This document shows positions 10,425 to 20,013 of a DNA stretch of 20,798 nt, in pieces; the first letter of the stretch is position 1, and every line of letters starts with the position of its first letter. The stretch comes from a virus: IMG/VR virus record IMGVR_UViG_3300030102_001239, positions 520 to 21,317 of that record; one strand, given 5' to 3'. The translations under genes and the position numbers were made by a program. The notes beneath the pieces were generated by a model. That model saw only the letters and a list, made by a program, of their open reading frames with translations. It ran no database searches and was not told where the DNA came from.

Positions 10425-10789
10425 TCTGTACCTGCTATAATGTGGTCTGATGGATGTCTATTGCGATTGTATTGTTCTATTCTCCATTGTTCGCTATGAA
10501 ACTTATCTGCCTCGATTTCTCTTTGTAGATTCGCAAGGCTGCGCCAAGCGAGTTTTGCTGAGTGGCGTACCCCATCTATATCATACATACCATTCTCAAT
10601 TAGGTGTCGCATAAGTGCATCTAAATCGTCTTTGCTTTTTTCTCTATCCCAATGTATTTCTTTGTCAGGATGATGTTGTTTACTTCCTATGTAGCTTACT
10701 CTTGCTACTTCGCATAGTGCATCAGGAAAGTATTTTATTAGTCCACTATACAAGGGTATCTCTTTTCTCTTTTGTTTGTTCTTTTCCAT
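10421..10789 (-). CDS. Putative dATP/dGTP pyrophosphohydrolase, DUF5664-type (MazG-like)
   Basis: 122 aa. Conserved-looking blocks are RKEIPLYSGLIKYFPDALCE (8-27), EVARVSYIGSKQHHPDK (27-43), IHWDREKSKDDLDALMRHL (45-63) and DGVRHSAKLAWRSLANLQRE (72-91). The set of helices with Asp/Glu/His clusters and the RHSAKLAWRSLA segment matches what I recall of the dATP/dGTP diphosphohydrolase (DUF5664) family, which hydrolyses purine dNTPs to monophosphates. Phages use such enzymes to shape nucleotide pools, sometimes for modified DNA. It lies between a zinc-ribbon gene (TAATG) and a methyltransferase gene (ATGA), which supports a DNA-metabolism role. Activity is inferred from family only. Confidence 0.65.
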   Translation of the reverse strand: MEKNKQKRKEIPLYSGLIKYFPDALCEVARVSYIGSKQHHPDKEIHWDREKSKDDLDALMRHLIENGMYDIDGVRHSAKLAWRSLANLQREIEADKFHSEQWRIEQYNRNRHPSDHIIAGTE

Positions 10790-16867: not shown

Positions 16868-17284
16868 CTACGCTTTTTTCTTAAATTTCTCAACAGACCT
16901 GCCTCCAAAGTAAGCCAAGAAAACAATTGTAAGCAATTCTTTCACAACTTCAAGCTCTTGTATTTGTAGAAACCAACCTATCACAAAAGCAACAGTCAAA
17001 AAGATTAAAGTTAATGGTCTTACATTCTGCGTTAATTTTGATCCTTGAGAATCTGCTACCCATCTTTTAGTTACCTCTTGCATTTCTATTAAATCAAATT
17101 CTAAGCGTTTTAAGGCTTCTTCTTTGTCTTGTGGGGGTAAGGTATCATCTTTACTAATTACGTTCTTTACAATGCCTAATAAACCCTCTGAGGGCAATGC
17201 ATCGCCTACAAAGTCTGCTATGTTACTGCCTTTAGACAATAAGAATTGTCCTACCTTTGTGTCTTTAAATTTTTTCTTACTCAT
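16868..17284 (-). CDS. Holin of the GTA / 3TM superfamily
   Basis: 138 aa. The family hallmark is clear: an amphipathic helix with EMQEVTKRWVADSQGS (about 67-82), then the conserved LTQNVRPLTL (83-93), then two hydrophobic segments, about 90-108 (PLTLIFLTVAFVIGWFLQI) and about 113-130 (VVKELLTIVFLAYFGG), and a basic tail SVEKFKKKA. Such proteins permeabilise the inner membrane so the cytoplasmic amidase reaches peptidoglycan. The N-terminus (SEGLLGIVKNVI) may supply a third membrane-associated helix. It is the last gene of the cassette, followed by the longest gap without a gene in the window. Assignment follows from the RW..D and NVRPLTL signature. Confidence 0.85.
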   Translation of the reverse strand: MSKKKFKDTKVGQFLLSKGSNIADFVGDALPSEGLLGIVKNVISKDDTLPPQDKEEALKRLEFDLIEMQEVTKRWVADSQGSKLTQNVRPLTLIFLTVAFVIGWFLQIQELEVVKELLTIVFLAYFGGRSVEKFKKKA

Positions 17285-17420
17285 AATAAAATCTCCATTT
17301 TAGTTGTATAATTAATAAGTATATGTTTAACTCCTCAAAATTATGCTCTGTGTCAGCAGGGTAATAATTGAAACCTAAGTTTATTCCGTTAGGTAAAAGA
17401 AGTATAACAGAAAAGTCCAT
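17277..17420 (-). CDS. 47-aa lysis-cassette microprotein
   Basis: A short frame begins at the ATG inside the TAATG that ends the endolysin gene. It ends in a TAA that overlaps the holin start by 8 nt. The product begins MDFSVILLLPNGINLGFNYY and ends NIYLLIIQLKWRFYYE, with two hydrophobic stretches separated by a charged middle (PADTEHNFEELN). The stop/start coupling on both sides and the full use of the gap between endolysin and holin support it as a real gene. It may be membrane-associated; the second stretch, YLLIIQLKW, is too short for a confident transmembrane helix. Function unknown. Confidence 0.65.
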   Translation of the reverse strand: MDFSVILLLPNGINLGFNYYPADTEHNFEELNIYLLIIQLKWRFYYE

Positions 17421-17842
17421 TAGCAGTTGCTTATGTATTGGTATTCTGCTTTGGCATCAAAACTTGGACAAGCCTTAGTAGAGAAGTCTCTGTGTCCATA
17501 TATTTTTGATTTAGGGTATTGTTCTTTTAATTCTTGTAACAAGTCAAGTAGGGTGTCTTTCTGTGCTTGTGTGCGTGTATCTTTAGGCTCTTTCATATCT
17601 TTAGTCATACCACCTGCGTAACTAATTCCTATAGAGCAATAGTTTTGTCCTGAACAATGTGCGCCTGTTCTTTCTATTGGTCTTGCTTCTTGTAGTTCCC
17701 CATCTAACTTTATGTGAAAGTGATAACCTACATCTGACCATCCTCTTTCCTCAACATGCCACTTTCTTATTTCCTGTACATCAACTTCTCTCCCCTCAGG
17801 TGTAGCTGTACAATGCACTATGATTTTTGTTACTTGTCTCAT
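17420..17842 (-). CDS. N-acetylmuramoyl-L-alanine amidase endolysin (Amidase_2 / T7 lysozyme type)
   Basis: 140 aa, a compact single catalytic domain without a cell-wall binding module, as usual for Gram-negative phages. It cleaves the amide bond between N-acetylmuramic acid and the stem peptide. The zinc ligands expected for the family are present: H10 in IIVHCTAT, H117 in YGHRDF and C125 in KACPSFD. Y40 in DVGYHFHI and K123 correspond to the catalytic Tyr and Lys positions of T7 lysozyme. No signal peptide or SAR anchor is seen, so release needs the holin encoded downstream. The gene starts inside the end of the beta-barrel gene (ATGA) and ends in TAATG with a 47-aa gene. Confidence 0.95.
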   Translation of the reverse strand: MRQVTKIIVHCTATPEGREVDVQEIRKWHVEERGWSDVGYHFHIKLDGELQEARPIERTGAHCSGQNYCSIGISYAGGMTKDMKEPKDTRTQAQKDTLLDLLQELKEQYPKSKIYGHRDFSTKACPSFDAKAEYQYISNC

Positions 17843-19014
17843 AATCTAAAATTTAAACCTACACTTGAATTATAAATTTTTGAATCCCAAAACTTTGTGT
17901 ATTCGCCCTCTACAAACACACCGATTCTTTTACTAATCTTCCAACCTAAGCTAACCCCTGCTTGATAATCTTCCCATTGTTCATGCTCAGAATCTTGTCT
18001 AAGTCCACCTAACCCCCAATTATTTCTATTAAGATAACTAAAATCTACATCTCCCTTAACGTATTTATGATACGGAAGTAAGTATGATCCGTAAGCGTGT
18101 AGCCAAAACTTACCACCTTTTCCGTAGTGATAAAAGTCAAAACCAACAAGAGGACTTACCACACCAAAAGCATCTAACTCATCCCAAACTTCGTTATTAT
18201 AACGATTTATAAGATTTTCAAATACTGTATCTCTAAACTGTAAATCTGTATAAGCTACTACGTTACCTTGTGGATCATACCAATAGTAATCAAACACTTC
18301 TTCTCCATCTATGTTTATTGTTACCCATTGGTCAGTAAAACCATAATTATATCCAAGCTGATACCAATAGTTTACAGGATAGCCTTGCTCGTTTGTTTCG
18401 TTTAACCATATCTCTATTGGGTTGTAGCCATAAGGACGTATGTGTGATCTATACATAGCTCCTGCGCTTAGACTAAACTTTTTACCTATTGGTAGTTTAG
18501 CTCGTATTTCTGCTGATTGATAATTAAAATCTACTCTACCTTGCTTTCTGCTTTCTACTTTTACCATATGGTATTTACCACTATGCTTTATAAAATATCT
18601 ATGGTTCTTATATATTTCGTCTCTTGATCTTTCTTTCTCAAAGTGAAATGTGTATTCTAAACCACTTACAGGAGAGTTACTTGCAGAAAGTCCTATGTTG
18701 TTTTCTGTGCCATCGTAATAGTGTTTACCTTTCATCTCATAATCAAACCTTGCTATCTTGCGAATACCAAAGCCGTAACGATAATCAAAGTCGTAATAGT
18801 CTGTACCATCAACAACAACAGGAACATCATATAAACCACCATCAGGATTTGTTCTGACAAAATAATCTTTAGGTTGTTCTTTAGGATTGTCAATGTCTCC
18901 TGCTATGTATATTGTGCTGTACTTAAATAAGTCTTTGTATATTTTCTCAAATAGGTTTTGTGATGTAGCTTGTGTTGCTACAAAAAACAAAACAAATGTA
19001 ATAAGTGTTCTCAT
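17839..19014 (-). CDS. Signal-peptide-bearing outer-membrane beta-barrel-like protein
   Basis: 391 aa. Residues 1-19 (MRTLITFVLFFVATQATSQ) form a signal peptide. The mature protein is very rich in Tyr, Phe, Trp and Gly, with many alternating amphipathic strands. The last strand runs GVFVEGEYTKFW ... SSVGLNFRL, the usual C-terminal shape of a barrel targeted to the BAM machinery. About residues 150-180 (FNYQSAEIRAKLPIGKKFSLSAGAMYR) look like adjacent barrel strands. It does not resemble TonB-dependent receptors and has no plug. It overlaps the endolysin start by ATGA and follows the thioredoxin-like gene by 2 nt, so it sits inside the lysis cassette. Possible roles are outer-membrane disruption at lysis, or surface alteration that blocks superinfection. 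Neither is shown by sequence alone. Confidence 0.7.
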   Translation of the reverse strand: MRTLITFVLFFVATQATSQNLFEKIYKDLFKYSTIYIAGDIDNPKEQPKDYFVRTNPDGGLYDVPVVVDGTDYYDFDYRYGFGIRKIARFDYEMKGKHYYDGTENNIGLSASNSPVSGLEYTFHFEKERSRDEIYKNHRYFIKHSGKYHMVKVESRKQGRVDFNYQSAEIRAKLPIGKKFSLSAGAMYRSHIRPYGYNPIEIWLNETNEQGYPVNYWYQLGYNYGFTDQWVTINIDGEEVFDYYWYDPQGNVVAYTDLQFRDTVFENLINRYNNEVWDELDAFGVVSPLVGFDFYHYGKGGKFWLHAYGSYLLPYHKYVKGDVDFSYLNRNNWGLGGLRQDSEHEQWEDYQAGVSLGWKISKRIGVFVEGEYTKFWDSKIYNSSVGLNFRL

Positions 19015-19016
19015 AA

Positions 19017-19340
19017 TTAAAATTTGCTATCTATTATTTCTTCTATTTCTTCTTCGATTCTTTGTATCGCATTATCAGGAAGTTTTAAGGATATACCTGA
19101 TTCTACTCGCATTACTTCCTCATCGTTATAAAACAATATAATTGTAGGAATATATTTTATATTGTGTTTTTTAAAGGCACTACTCTCCTTTGACATATAT
19201 AATGTTTTTGCATCATATGCCTTAAAAGGTTTTAAGGAAACCTCATTATCCTTTACAAATTCAGCACTATACTGAACTACTTCAACCTGTGCAGATATCG
19301 CACATACCCACAAAAAAGCAATCGTTACACATAATCTCAT
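19017..19340 (-). CDS. Exported thioredoxin-fold protein lacking the CXXC active site
   Basis: 107 aa. The N-terminus MRLCVTIAFLWVCAISAQ is a typical short signal peptide, with a likely cut after residue 17. The mature part reads like a thioredoxin: a beta strand VVQYSAEF (21-28), a helix with AFKKHNI (55-61), then YIPTIILFYNDEEV (63-76), which has the cis-proline context (P65) and the following strand and turn. The positions where the redox CXXC should sit contain no cysteine; the only two cysteines (C4 and C13) are in the signal peptide. It is therefore unlikely to be a disulphide reductase and may bind proteins in the periplasm. ATGA coupling to the TM coiled-coil gene upstream and a 2-nt gap to the beta-barrel gene downstream suggest joint expression. 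Confidence 0.7.
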   Translation of the reverse strand: MRLCVTIAFLWVCAISAQVEVVQYSAEFVKDNEVSLKPFKAYDAKTLYMSKESSAFKKHNIKYIPTIILFYNDEEVMRVESGISLKLPDNAIQRIEEEIEEIIDSKF

Positions 19341-19648
19341 TTTTTACTTATTTGATATAGTCTTTCGTCTATCTTCTGTAGCTGATCTTTAACTTCTTTT
19401 ACATCTCCACTTAATACATCAGTTTTTTCTTCTACTCTTTGTATAGTCGATCTGACTAACTCGTCTTTATATTGAAACTCTACAGGATTTACTGCATTGT
19501 TTTTTAAACTTTGTATATCTTCTGTGTTAGTGTCAACACTTGCCTGTAAGGTAAAGTATATACCAAACAAACTTGAAAGCCCTACTACTGCTCCTATAAT
19601 CTCTTTTAGAGATAAACTAAACTTGCTTTCTGGATTCAGCTCTGCCAT
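19337..19648 (-). CDS. Single-TM coiled-coil membrane protein of the lysis region
   Basis: 103 aa. Residues about 15-35 (KEIIGAVVGLSSLFGIYFTL) form one clear hydrophobic segment after a short polar N-terminus. The rest is a charged helix with heptad-like spacing from about 40 to 103, ending in EVKDQLQKIDERLYQISKK. This one-TM-plus-periplasmic-coiled-coil layout is shared by inner-membrane spanins and by small holin-like or accessory lysis proteins. It is coupled on both sides: TAATG with the upstream gene and ATGA with the downstream exported protein. A spanin-like or holin-like role is inference from topology and position; no family signature was recognised. Confidence 0.7.
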   Translation of the reverse strand: MAELNPESKFSLSLKEIIGAVVGLSSLFGIYFTLQASVDTNTEDIQSLKNNAVNPVEFQYKDELVRSTIQRVEEKTDVLSGDVKEVKDQLQKIDERLYQISKK

Positions 19649-20013
19649 TACATTTTATTTTCTAGGTACGACACACCCATAAAACCGTGCATACCCTCGT
19701 TATCTAAATCAAGTGCAAAGCTCTTCCATCCGTAAGGATGATCTACACTTACGTTACCCTCTTCGTCAACTTCTTCTAAATTTTTCCAAAGAACGTCCAC
19801 GTGATATTTGTCAGAAAGAACAGGTGCTTTTACTTCCTCGCCATCTGCATCATACTCGCCTTGCTCAATAACTATGTTACCTAGCTTAACAATAGTATGT
19901 GCGTGTGCAGGAACATCGTTGCCCTCTTCATCCTTTACACTTGGTAAAGCATTGATCTTAGCTAAAGCACTAGCTTCATCTGCAAACTCATATTTACTTA
20001 TTTTTATTCCCAT
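19648..20013 (-). CDS. Small acidic phage protein of unknown function
   Basis: 121 aa, starting 2 nt after the stop of the lectin-like gene and ending in a TAATG overlap with the next gene. It begins MGIKISKYEFADEASALAK and is rich in Asp and Glu, with mixed alpha/beta character and no membrane segment or signal peptide. The middle (about residues 28-60) has acidic, repetitive text such as DEEGNDVPAH and YDADGEEVKAP, resembling loops in phage structural accessory proteins. Position between the adsorption protein and the lysis cassette suggests a virion accessory or assembly role, but no motif supports a specific function. Confidence 0.7.
   Translation of the reverse strand: MGIKISKYEFADEASALAKINALPSVKDEEGNDVPAHAHTIVKLGNIVIEQGEYDADGEEVKAPVLSDKYHVDVLWKNLEEVDEEGNVSVDHPYGWKSFALDLDNEGMHGFMGVSYLENKM

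Follow-up and report, generated by a model that had tools for sequence, protein, structure and literature searches.

A thioredoxin-fold protein and a predicted outer-membrane barrel linked to a membrane-anchored coiled coil at a phage lysis locus: a candidate spanin-like module

The DNA analysed here, a stretch of 20,798 nucleotides that we call the window, belongs to a virus record of 21.7 kb in IMG/VR (IMGVR_UViG_3300030102_001239, positions 520 to 21,317), and its minus strand carries three successive genes, whose products are predicted to lie in the inner membrane, the periplasm and the outer membrane of the host. The first, TMcc (19337..19648, 103 amino acids), is predicted to consist of a short cytoplasmic N-terminus, one transmembrane (TM) helix (residues 16-34, 19547..19603, assigned from hydropathy and charge asymmetry) and a periplasmic coiled coil, and has the appearance of an i-spanin. 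The second, Trx107 (19017..19340, 107 amino acids), is predicted to be exported and soluble, with a thioredoxin fold, no CxxC motif and a C-terminal Phe; its signal peptide (19290..19340) would be cleaved before Q18, as in the Q-rule of Bacteroidota. The third, barrel391 (17839..19014, 391 amino acids), is a predicted outer-membrane beta-barrel of about 12 strands with three large outer loops, and its signal peptide (18961..19014) would be cleaved before Q19. No strong match to a named family was obtained for any of the three (only sub-threshold thioredoxin matches for Trx107, E 0.06-0.08). We are inclined to regard TMcc, Trx107 and barrel391 (hereafter the triad) as an envelope-spanning module for the disruption of the outer membrane, spanin-like in function, and probably as a new way of breaking this membrane when the host bursts.

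The genes of the locus are transcribed in the order p121, TMcc, Trx107, barrel391, amidase, p47 and holin. An earlier note on this DNA, made from the letters alone, had described the six genes at 16868-19648 as a coupled envelope cassette with inner-membrane, periplasmic and outer-membrane features; all six open reading frames (ORFs) were found at these coordinates on the minus strand, and the junctions as well as the predictions agree with that description. TMcc and Trx107 overlap by 4 bp, Trx107 and barrel391 are separated by 2 bp, and the following overlaps are 4 bp (barrel391/amidase), 1 bp (amidase/p47) and 8 bp (p47/holin). The endolysin (17420..17842, 140 amino acids) is an N-acetylmuramoyl-L-alanine amidase of the Amidase_2 type (PF01510, E 4e-17; phrog_822, E 2.5e-57), and the holin (16868..17284, 138 amino acids) matches phrog_3427 (E 6e-13), while a relative scores just under the cut-off of GTA_holin_3TM (PF11351). 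Between them lies p47 (17277..17420, 47 amino acids). On the other side p121 (19648..20013, 121 amino acids; phrog_18574, E 1.6e-7), which overlaps TMcc by 1 bp, forms a left boundary conserved in synteny.

In IMG/VR, the barrel was found on 48 stretches by a single-sequence scan and then on at least 570 by a profile scan, the Trx on 25 and then on at least 270. The deduplicated locus set comprised 157 contigs, fetched by barrel or Trx, and linkage was counted for those genes that had at least 5 kb of sequence upstream and at least 2.5 kb downstream. Both partners, TMcc and Trx, stood beside the barrel on the same strand for all 89 barrels with enough flank, and both partners stood beside the Trx in 85 of 86 cases; the sole exception, L178, has its barrel farther along the same record, and the count becomes 86 of 86 once this whole record is searched. 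Contig ends account for L105 and for most of the other incomplete loci. In a second set, for which the only bait was the M15 endolysin of L014 and which is independent of the fetching by barrel or Trx, the full triad was present in 62 of the 73 loci. The linkage of the triad is far beyond chance. TMcc lies directly before Trx wherever both occur, and 102 of 147 such pairs overlap by 4 or 1 bp. The position of the barrel varies: among the 157 contigs the order barrel-TMcc-Trx was seen 65 times and TMcc-Trx-barrel 64 times, and with about half of the loci barrel-first, the supposed layering of the gene order from inner membrane over periplasm to outer membrane is not conserved. In some loci two TMcc-Trx pairs were observed around one barrel (L066, L067, L069, L143, L144, L146, L147), and the second Trx of L067 is very divergent, with about 20% identity to the Trx of the window.

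The endolysin beside the triad belongs to Amidase_2 in the window lineage and to Peptidase_M15_3 in most others, while L072, L073 and L116 have a third type, assigned in L072 by a match to phrog_33083 (endolysin) and in L073 and L116 by a YkuD-like motif only. An M15 or Amidase_2 enzyme lies near 101 of the 135 deduplicated full-triad loci, and many of the others stop at contig ends. In many relatives the genes stay with endolysins instead of being scattered and unlinked to them, which would have counted against the earlier note. This fixed three-gene set beside unrelated endolysin types, together with the gene replacement at the same site described below, speaks against a nutrient porin or another auxiliary gene set that came to stand in the late region by chance; phage-encoded outer-membrane-type proteins among the matches in BFVD would suit such a view, which we consider very improbable.

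Cousins of the window phage that have a 60-66% identical amidase and no triad keep the amidase and the holin, mostly also p121, p47 and NinG, and in those read out the interval from p121 to the amidase, where the window has its triad, contains small TM proteins. Since these triad-less cousins keep the lysis block and have other genes at this site, the triad acts as a replaceable cassette within the lysis locus. In L201 (3465-3842), L211, L217, L229 and L230 the place before the amidase is taken by a protein of 119-125 amino acids that contains a coiled coil and probably two TM helices, and several cousins add a TM protein of 51-60 amino acids. The gene p47 is part of the amidase-holin block, which is also present in phages without the triad; from the six-gene cassette proposed earlier the TMcc-Trx-barrel module is therefore retained, and p47 and the holin are assigned to the amidase block. 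A known holin family was found near 54 of the 157 loci, and the holin differs between lineages while the triad persists, which argues against a control of lysis timing, in which TMcc and Trx would act on the holin as antiholin or superinfection sensor, with the barrel as sensor in the outer membrane. T4 RI is an antiholin and superinfection sensor acting on the holin, and the linkage of the triad to the endolysin and, in many loci, to the holin would fit such a role, which nevertheless seems to us a very unlikely one.

For TMcc, the N-terminal side of the helix carries more positive charge than the C-terminal side in 33 of 35 homologues, indicating an N-in/C-out orientation, and heptad periodicity is significant in 35 of 35. 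By prediction, TMcc has both features by which an i-spanin is recognised, an inner-membrane protein with N-in/C-out topology and a periplasmic coiled coil, and it is similar in size and topology to the T4 i-spanin of 117 amino acids (PMC6139136). The family has the invariant residues E57, K61, D62 and R66 just past the linker, and its members differ by an indel of exactly 7 residues, i.e. one heptad, in the coil. A tblastn search with the TMcc of L014 gave no match in the collection of deposited phage genomes.

The AlphaFold2 model of Trx107 (pLDDT 86) displays a thioredoxin fold, with a Z-score of 11.6 to 6mos. Thioredoxins were also matched when the profile of the Trx family was compared with the PDB, most of them at E 2.5e-8 or weaker; in the best-scoring row (6.7e-11) no single stretch passes alone. 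A CxxC motif is present in none of the 149 Trx members of triads; two CxxC proteins were also caught by the Trx profile, and these are encoded by separate genes elsewhere in the loci and are ordinary thioredoxins by sequence. The cis-Pro (P65-T66 in Trx107) is invariant in an alignment of 49 Trx sequences and the C-terminal Phe nearly so. On the strength of its model, Trx107 is a redox-dead thioredoxin fold, having the fold of a thioredoxin and lacking the CxxC redox centre, and because of this fold and the invariant cis-Pro the peptide-binding groove appears to be retained. Q18 is nearly invariant as well, and an AxA|Q-like cleavage pattern fits 137 of 146 homologues. In the same collection of phage genomes, tblastn gave no match for the Trx of the window or of L014, and for the Trx of L072 weak matches only, some of which are annotated thioredoxins.

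Barrel391 was modelled with antiparallel strands (pLDDT 77, pTM 0.64; residues 89-113 modelled poorly), and the closest PDB structures are outer-membrane barrels, none of them specific, with TamA, CymA, NanC and other generic barrels at the top. Structure prediction of this protein, which had been suggested as a check, has returned the expected barrel, and that of Trx107 the expected thioredoxin fold. Our reading of the DSSP assignment of the model gives 12 strands, both termini on the periplasmic side and outer loops at about residues 43-76, 192-282 and 313-348. As a prediction, barrel391 combines the Sec signal peptide and the transmembrane antiparallel barrel that characterise outer-membrane beta-barrels, and the Q-rule pattern at the signal peptide fits 133 of 153 homologues. 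The barrel could be placed in none of the families of Pfam, NCBIfam and PHROG, its sequence matched nothing in the PDB, and tblastn with the barrels of the window and of L072 gave no match in that phage collection; its only close viral model is the unnamed BFVD entry A0A516LKJ4. A possible lipobox (e.g. LVSC or ITSC) was seen in distant-lineage barrels of L182 (6585-7688), L183 (6579-7661) and L187 (12443-13516), with a Cys-Cys-(A/S)-Gln site of ambiguous cleavage after it; these barrels may be lipidated.

Given its three large outer loops, the predicted barrel could also serve superinfection exclusion or surface conversion: displayed late, it would mask or replace a receptor, TMcc and Trx would aid its placement, and progeny would not be wasted on debris or on cells that are infected already. 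Phage-borne porins that lie beside lysis genes and alter the receptor status exist in Lc/NmpC of PA-2 and DLP12. The outer loops, however, show no hypervariability, being somewhat less conserved than the strands (mean majority fraction 0.72 in the loops and 0.80 in the strands, alignment A1), and exclusion does not account for the obligatory coiled coil in the inner membrane, nor for two observations described below, namely that TMcc co-varies with Trx and that a lipoprotein adjoins TMcc in barrel-less records. We regard this alternative, which the earlier note had set beside spanning of the envelope, as improbable, and the spanin-like reading is the better supported of the two. The barrel also has invariant charged residues in predicted strands (R85, E93, E120, R129, K152, E154, R189, D293, D349, E369), and H316 is located in a predicted outer loop. 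These residues, and the place of the module in the lysis block, would accord with lysis without a bridge, in which the barrel is a pore or a lipid-active enzyme weakening the outer membrane and the TMcc-Trx pair activates it or silences it until the holin fires. Against this stands that no enzyme barrel is prominent among the structural matches and no catalytic motif was recognised, inspection of the barrel by eye having revealed no Ser-His-Asp set; we consider it unlikely.

The spanin-like reading gains from loci where TMcc occurs without a barrel, namely seven M15-bearing records of 30-55 kb; in a positive control for this search, the barrel was recovered in 5 of 5. A lipoprotein gene lies directly before TMcc in six of the seven records, the strict lipobox rule being satisfied in L340, L343, L283, L319 and L345, and L341 being recognised by the family profile only. 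By the strict rule, a lipoprotein precedes TMcc in 5 of 7 barrel-less against 21 of 149 barrel-bearing loci (Fisher p 0.0015), a test which rests on a small set of seven related records chosen after inspection and on a crude lipobox rule. The operon of L319 runs from M15 to lipoprotein-TMcc and then ends, no Trx was found in its record, and its lipoprotein-TMcc layout is the same as that of a classical two-component spanin with o-spanin and i-spanin. A lipoprotein gene and TMcc share an overlap of exactly 32 bp in 11 barrel-bearing loci (L037, 10030-10476 / 10445-10735; L038, L039, L047, L087, L096, L103, L106, L290, L297, L304); the encoded lipobox protein is small and rich in Pro, Asn, Tyr and Ser, most of the phages concerned also show the barrel, and it is a candidate for a classical o-spanin. 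Several lipobox ORFs before TMcc in barrel-bearing loci are the barrels with a possible lipobox. We read TMcc as i-spanin-like, with an outer-membrane partner that would be either a lipoprotein or the barrel-Trx pair, and sometimes both.

Co-variation was analysed in 82 loci in which TMcc, Trx, barrel and the M15 enzyme are all present. The distances of TMcc and Trx correlate with r 0.81, against a background of 0.47 and 0.39 with the M15 enzyme, and the partial correlations given M15 are 0.77 for TMcc-Trx, 0.51 for TMcc-barrel and 0.43 for Trx-barrel (permutation p 0.001 each). Judged by these distances, TMcc and Trx are a tight pair, and the barrel is coupled to it yet mobile between phage groups.

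In the mechanism that we propose, TMcc would be anchored in the inner membrane with its coiled coil projecting into the periplasm, the redox-dead Trx would attach to TMcc and probably to the barrel's periplasmic face as well, and the barrel would be the anchor in the outer membrane, taking the role of the lipoprotein in classical spanins. Once the holin has triggered and the endolysin has removed the peptidoglycan, the bridge would be freed to collapse or oligomerise, and thereby break or fuse the outer membrane. The predicted locations and folds, the obligatory linkage, the place in the lysis block, the co-variation of TMcc with Trx and the lipoprotein found where the barrel is missing are observations; physical contact, spanning, timing and membrane disruption are what we infer. 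A bolder version, in which a three-component machine is widespread in marine Bacteroidota phages, the barrel and the Trx adaptor replace the lipoprotein o-spanin and the outer membrane is breached by another physical route than the membrane fusion of lipoprotein spanins (for example by the barrel being pulled or unfolded), is put forward tentatively and with some doubt.

Several findings weigh against such a bridge. Barrels at least 75% identical occur with Trx proteins as low as 21% identical, which speaks against a barrel-Trx interface of high specificity and is the main weakness of the bridge model. In a distant lineage a large gene can stand between the TMcc-Trx pair and the barrel. About 14% of the barrel-bearing loci also have, by the strict rule, a lipobox ORF just before TMcc, and barrel and lipoprotein are not strictly exclusive; L313 contains TMcc-Trx, with neither barrel nor lipoprotein seen. 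Regarding the hallmarks of spanins, no lipobox ORF is present in the non-overlapping gene set of the window, the signals of Trx107 and barrel391 are of the Q-rule signal peptidase I type, and the lipobox that marks an o-spanin is lacking. Cysteines are absent from mature TMcc, Trx107 and barrel391 of the window, leaving none for a disulfide, whereas most two-component spanins have a periplasmic cysteine and about 4% of the known pairs are without one (PMC6139136). Of the earlier proposal that a barrel and a soluble partner span the envelope in the manner of spanins, the folds, the linkage and the lipoprotein swap have borne out one part, while the movement of the barrel between differing TMcc/Trx pairs goes against it, as do the place of p47 outside the module and the variable gene order.

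A Gln after the signal peptide follows the Bacteroidetes Q-rule (PMC5837995). Such signal peptides, and the sorting domains of the type IX secretion system (T9SS) in neighbouring proteins of distant-lineage phages, point to Bacteroidota as the hosts of the module. One contig with a barrel-TMcc-Trx module, L074 (PBPJ01000041.1), is filed as a Woesearchaeota metagenome-assembled genome; it probably comes from a Bacteroidota phage that was placed in the wrong bin. Beside or near the TMcc-Trx-barrel module, L072 (1-3324, plus strand) and L178 (6789-9884, plus strand) encode large secreted proteins that have a T9SS type A sorting domain (TIGR04183/PF18962) at the C-terminus, as phage-borne cargo for the host T9SS. 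A T9SS role of the module itself was considered from this cargo beside the distant-lineage module and rejected as a general explanation, being unseen in the window lineage. A PorP/SprF-type T9SS profile had no match among the members of A4 (Pfam, NCBIfam), and the fold comparison is too general to discriminate. The Sec signal peptides of Trx and barrel led us to reject a role in the virion, as an ejection conduit. The window also holds two DNA methyltransferase genes, in one small phage (9798-10424 and 11334-11984, both on the minus strand), with phrog_67 as the best PHROG for both.

In the open-licence literature on flavobacterial spanin-like sets, on phage Trx with a barrel and on superinfection exclusion by outer-membrane proteins, the module was not found described. 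Kongari et al. could recognise no spanin for 91 of their 677 phages (about 13%), including Croceibacter P2559S/Y and Bacteroides B124-14, named the breakage of the outer membrane in such phages an open question and stated that an outer-membrane protein could serve as o-spanin (PMC6139136). A survey of 2025 reported Bacteroidetes phages with unimolecular spanins only and discarded o-spanin candidates without a lipobox (PMC12596118); the present module would therefore have escaped it. In Croceibacter phage P2559S (L346, NC_018276), an unannotated exported ORF of 185 amino acids (27508-28065, plus strand) lies beside the endolysin and overlaps gp29, a TM coiled-coil gene, by 167 bp out of frame; its product has a Q-rule signal peptide, a middle part that looks helical and an aromatic, strand-like C-terminus. 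This lysis region is like our module in having a TM coiled-coil gene and an exported Q-rule protein beside the endolysin, but it has two small proteins, neither a thioredoxin fold nor a full barrel, and no noted similarity to the triad. The ORF, for which the phage collection contained no relative, is a candidate non-lipoprotein o-spanin, judged from this one genome.

Thioredoxins as structural parts without redox activity are known from T7 DNA polymerase and the assembly of filamentous phage f1, and Trx107 shares with them the fold, the preserved cis-proline groove and the dispensability of the cysteines; it differs in being phage-encoded, exported to the periplasm and coupled to a membrane coiled coil. 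With the unimolecular spanins (T1 gp11) the module has the proposed outcome in common, i.e. disruption of the outer membrane after the endolysin, but it consists of three proteins and has no lipobox and no single chain across the periplasm; none of its proteins combines a lipobox with a C-terminal TM helix. The closest likeness is to the two-component spanins (lambda Rz/Rz1, T4 PseT.3/PseT.2), in which likewise a type II inner-membrane coiled-coil protein is encoded by an overlapping gene pair beside the endolysin, with the partner exported towards the outer membrane, and the subunit genes of the module likewise adjoin or overlap one another within the lysis genes or close to them. Because the lipobox is lacking in the window, we do not class the module as a spanin; our claim is that it works like one. 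To our knowledge it would, if this is true, be the first case of an integral outer-membrane protein acting as o-spanin, and it offers a concrete candidate for the outer-membrane step that is missing in a large set of marine Bacteroidota phages. The outer-membrane part, a lipoprotein in two-component spanins, is here a 391-amino-acid beta-barrel, which is always accompanied by a third protein with a thioredoxin fold.

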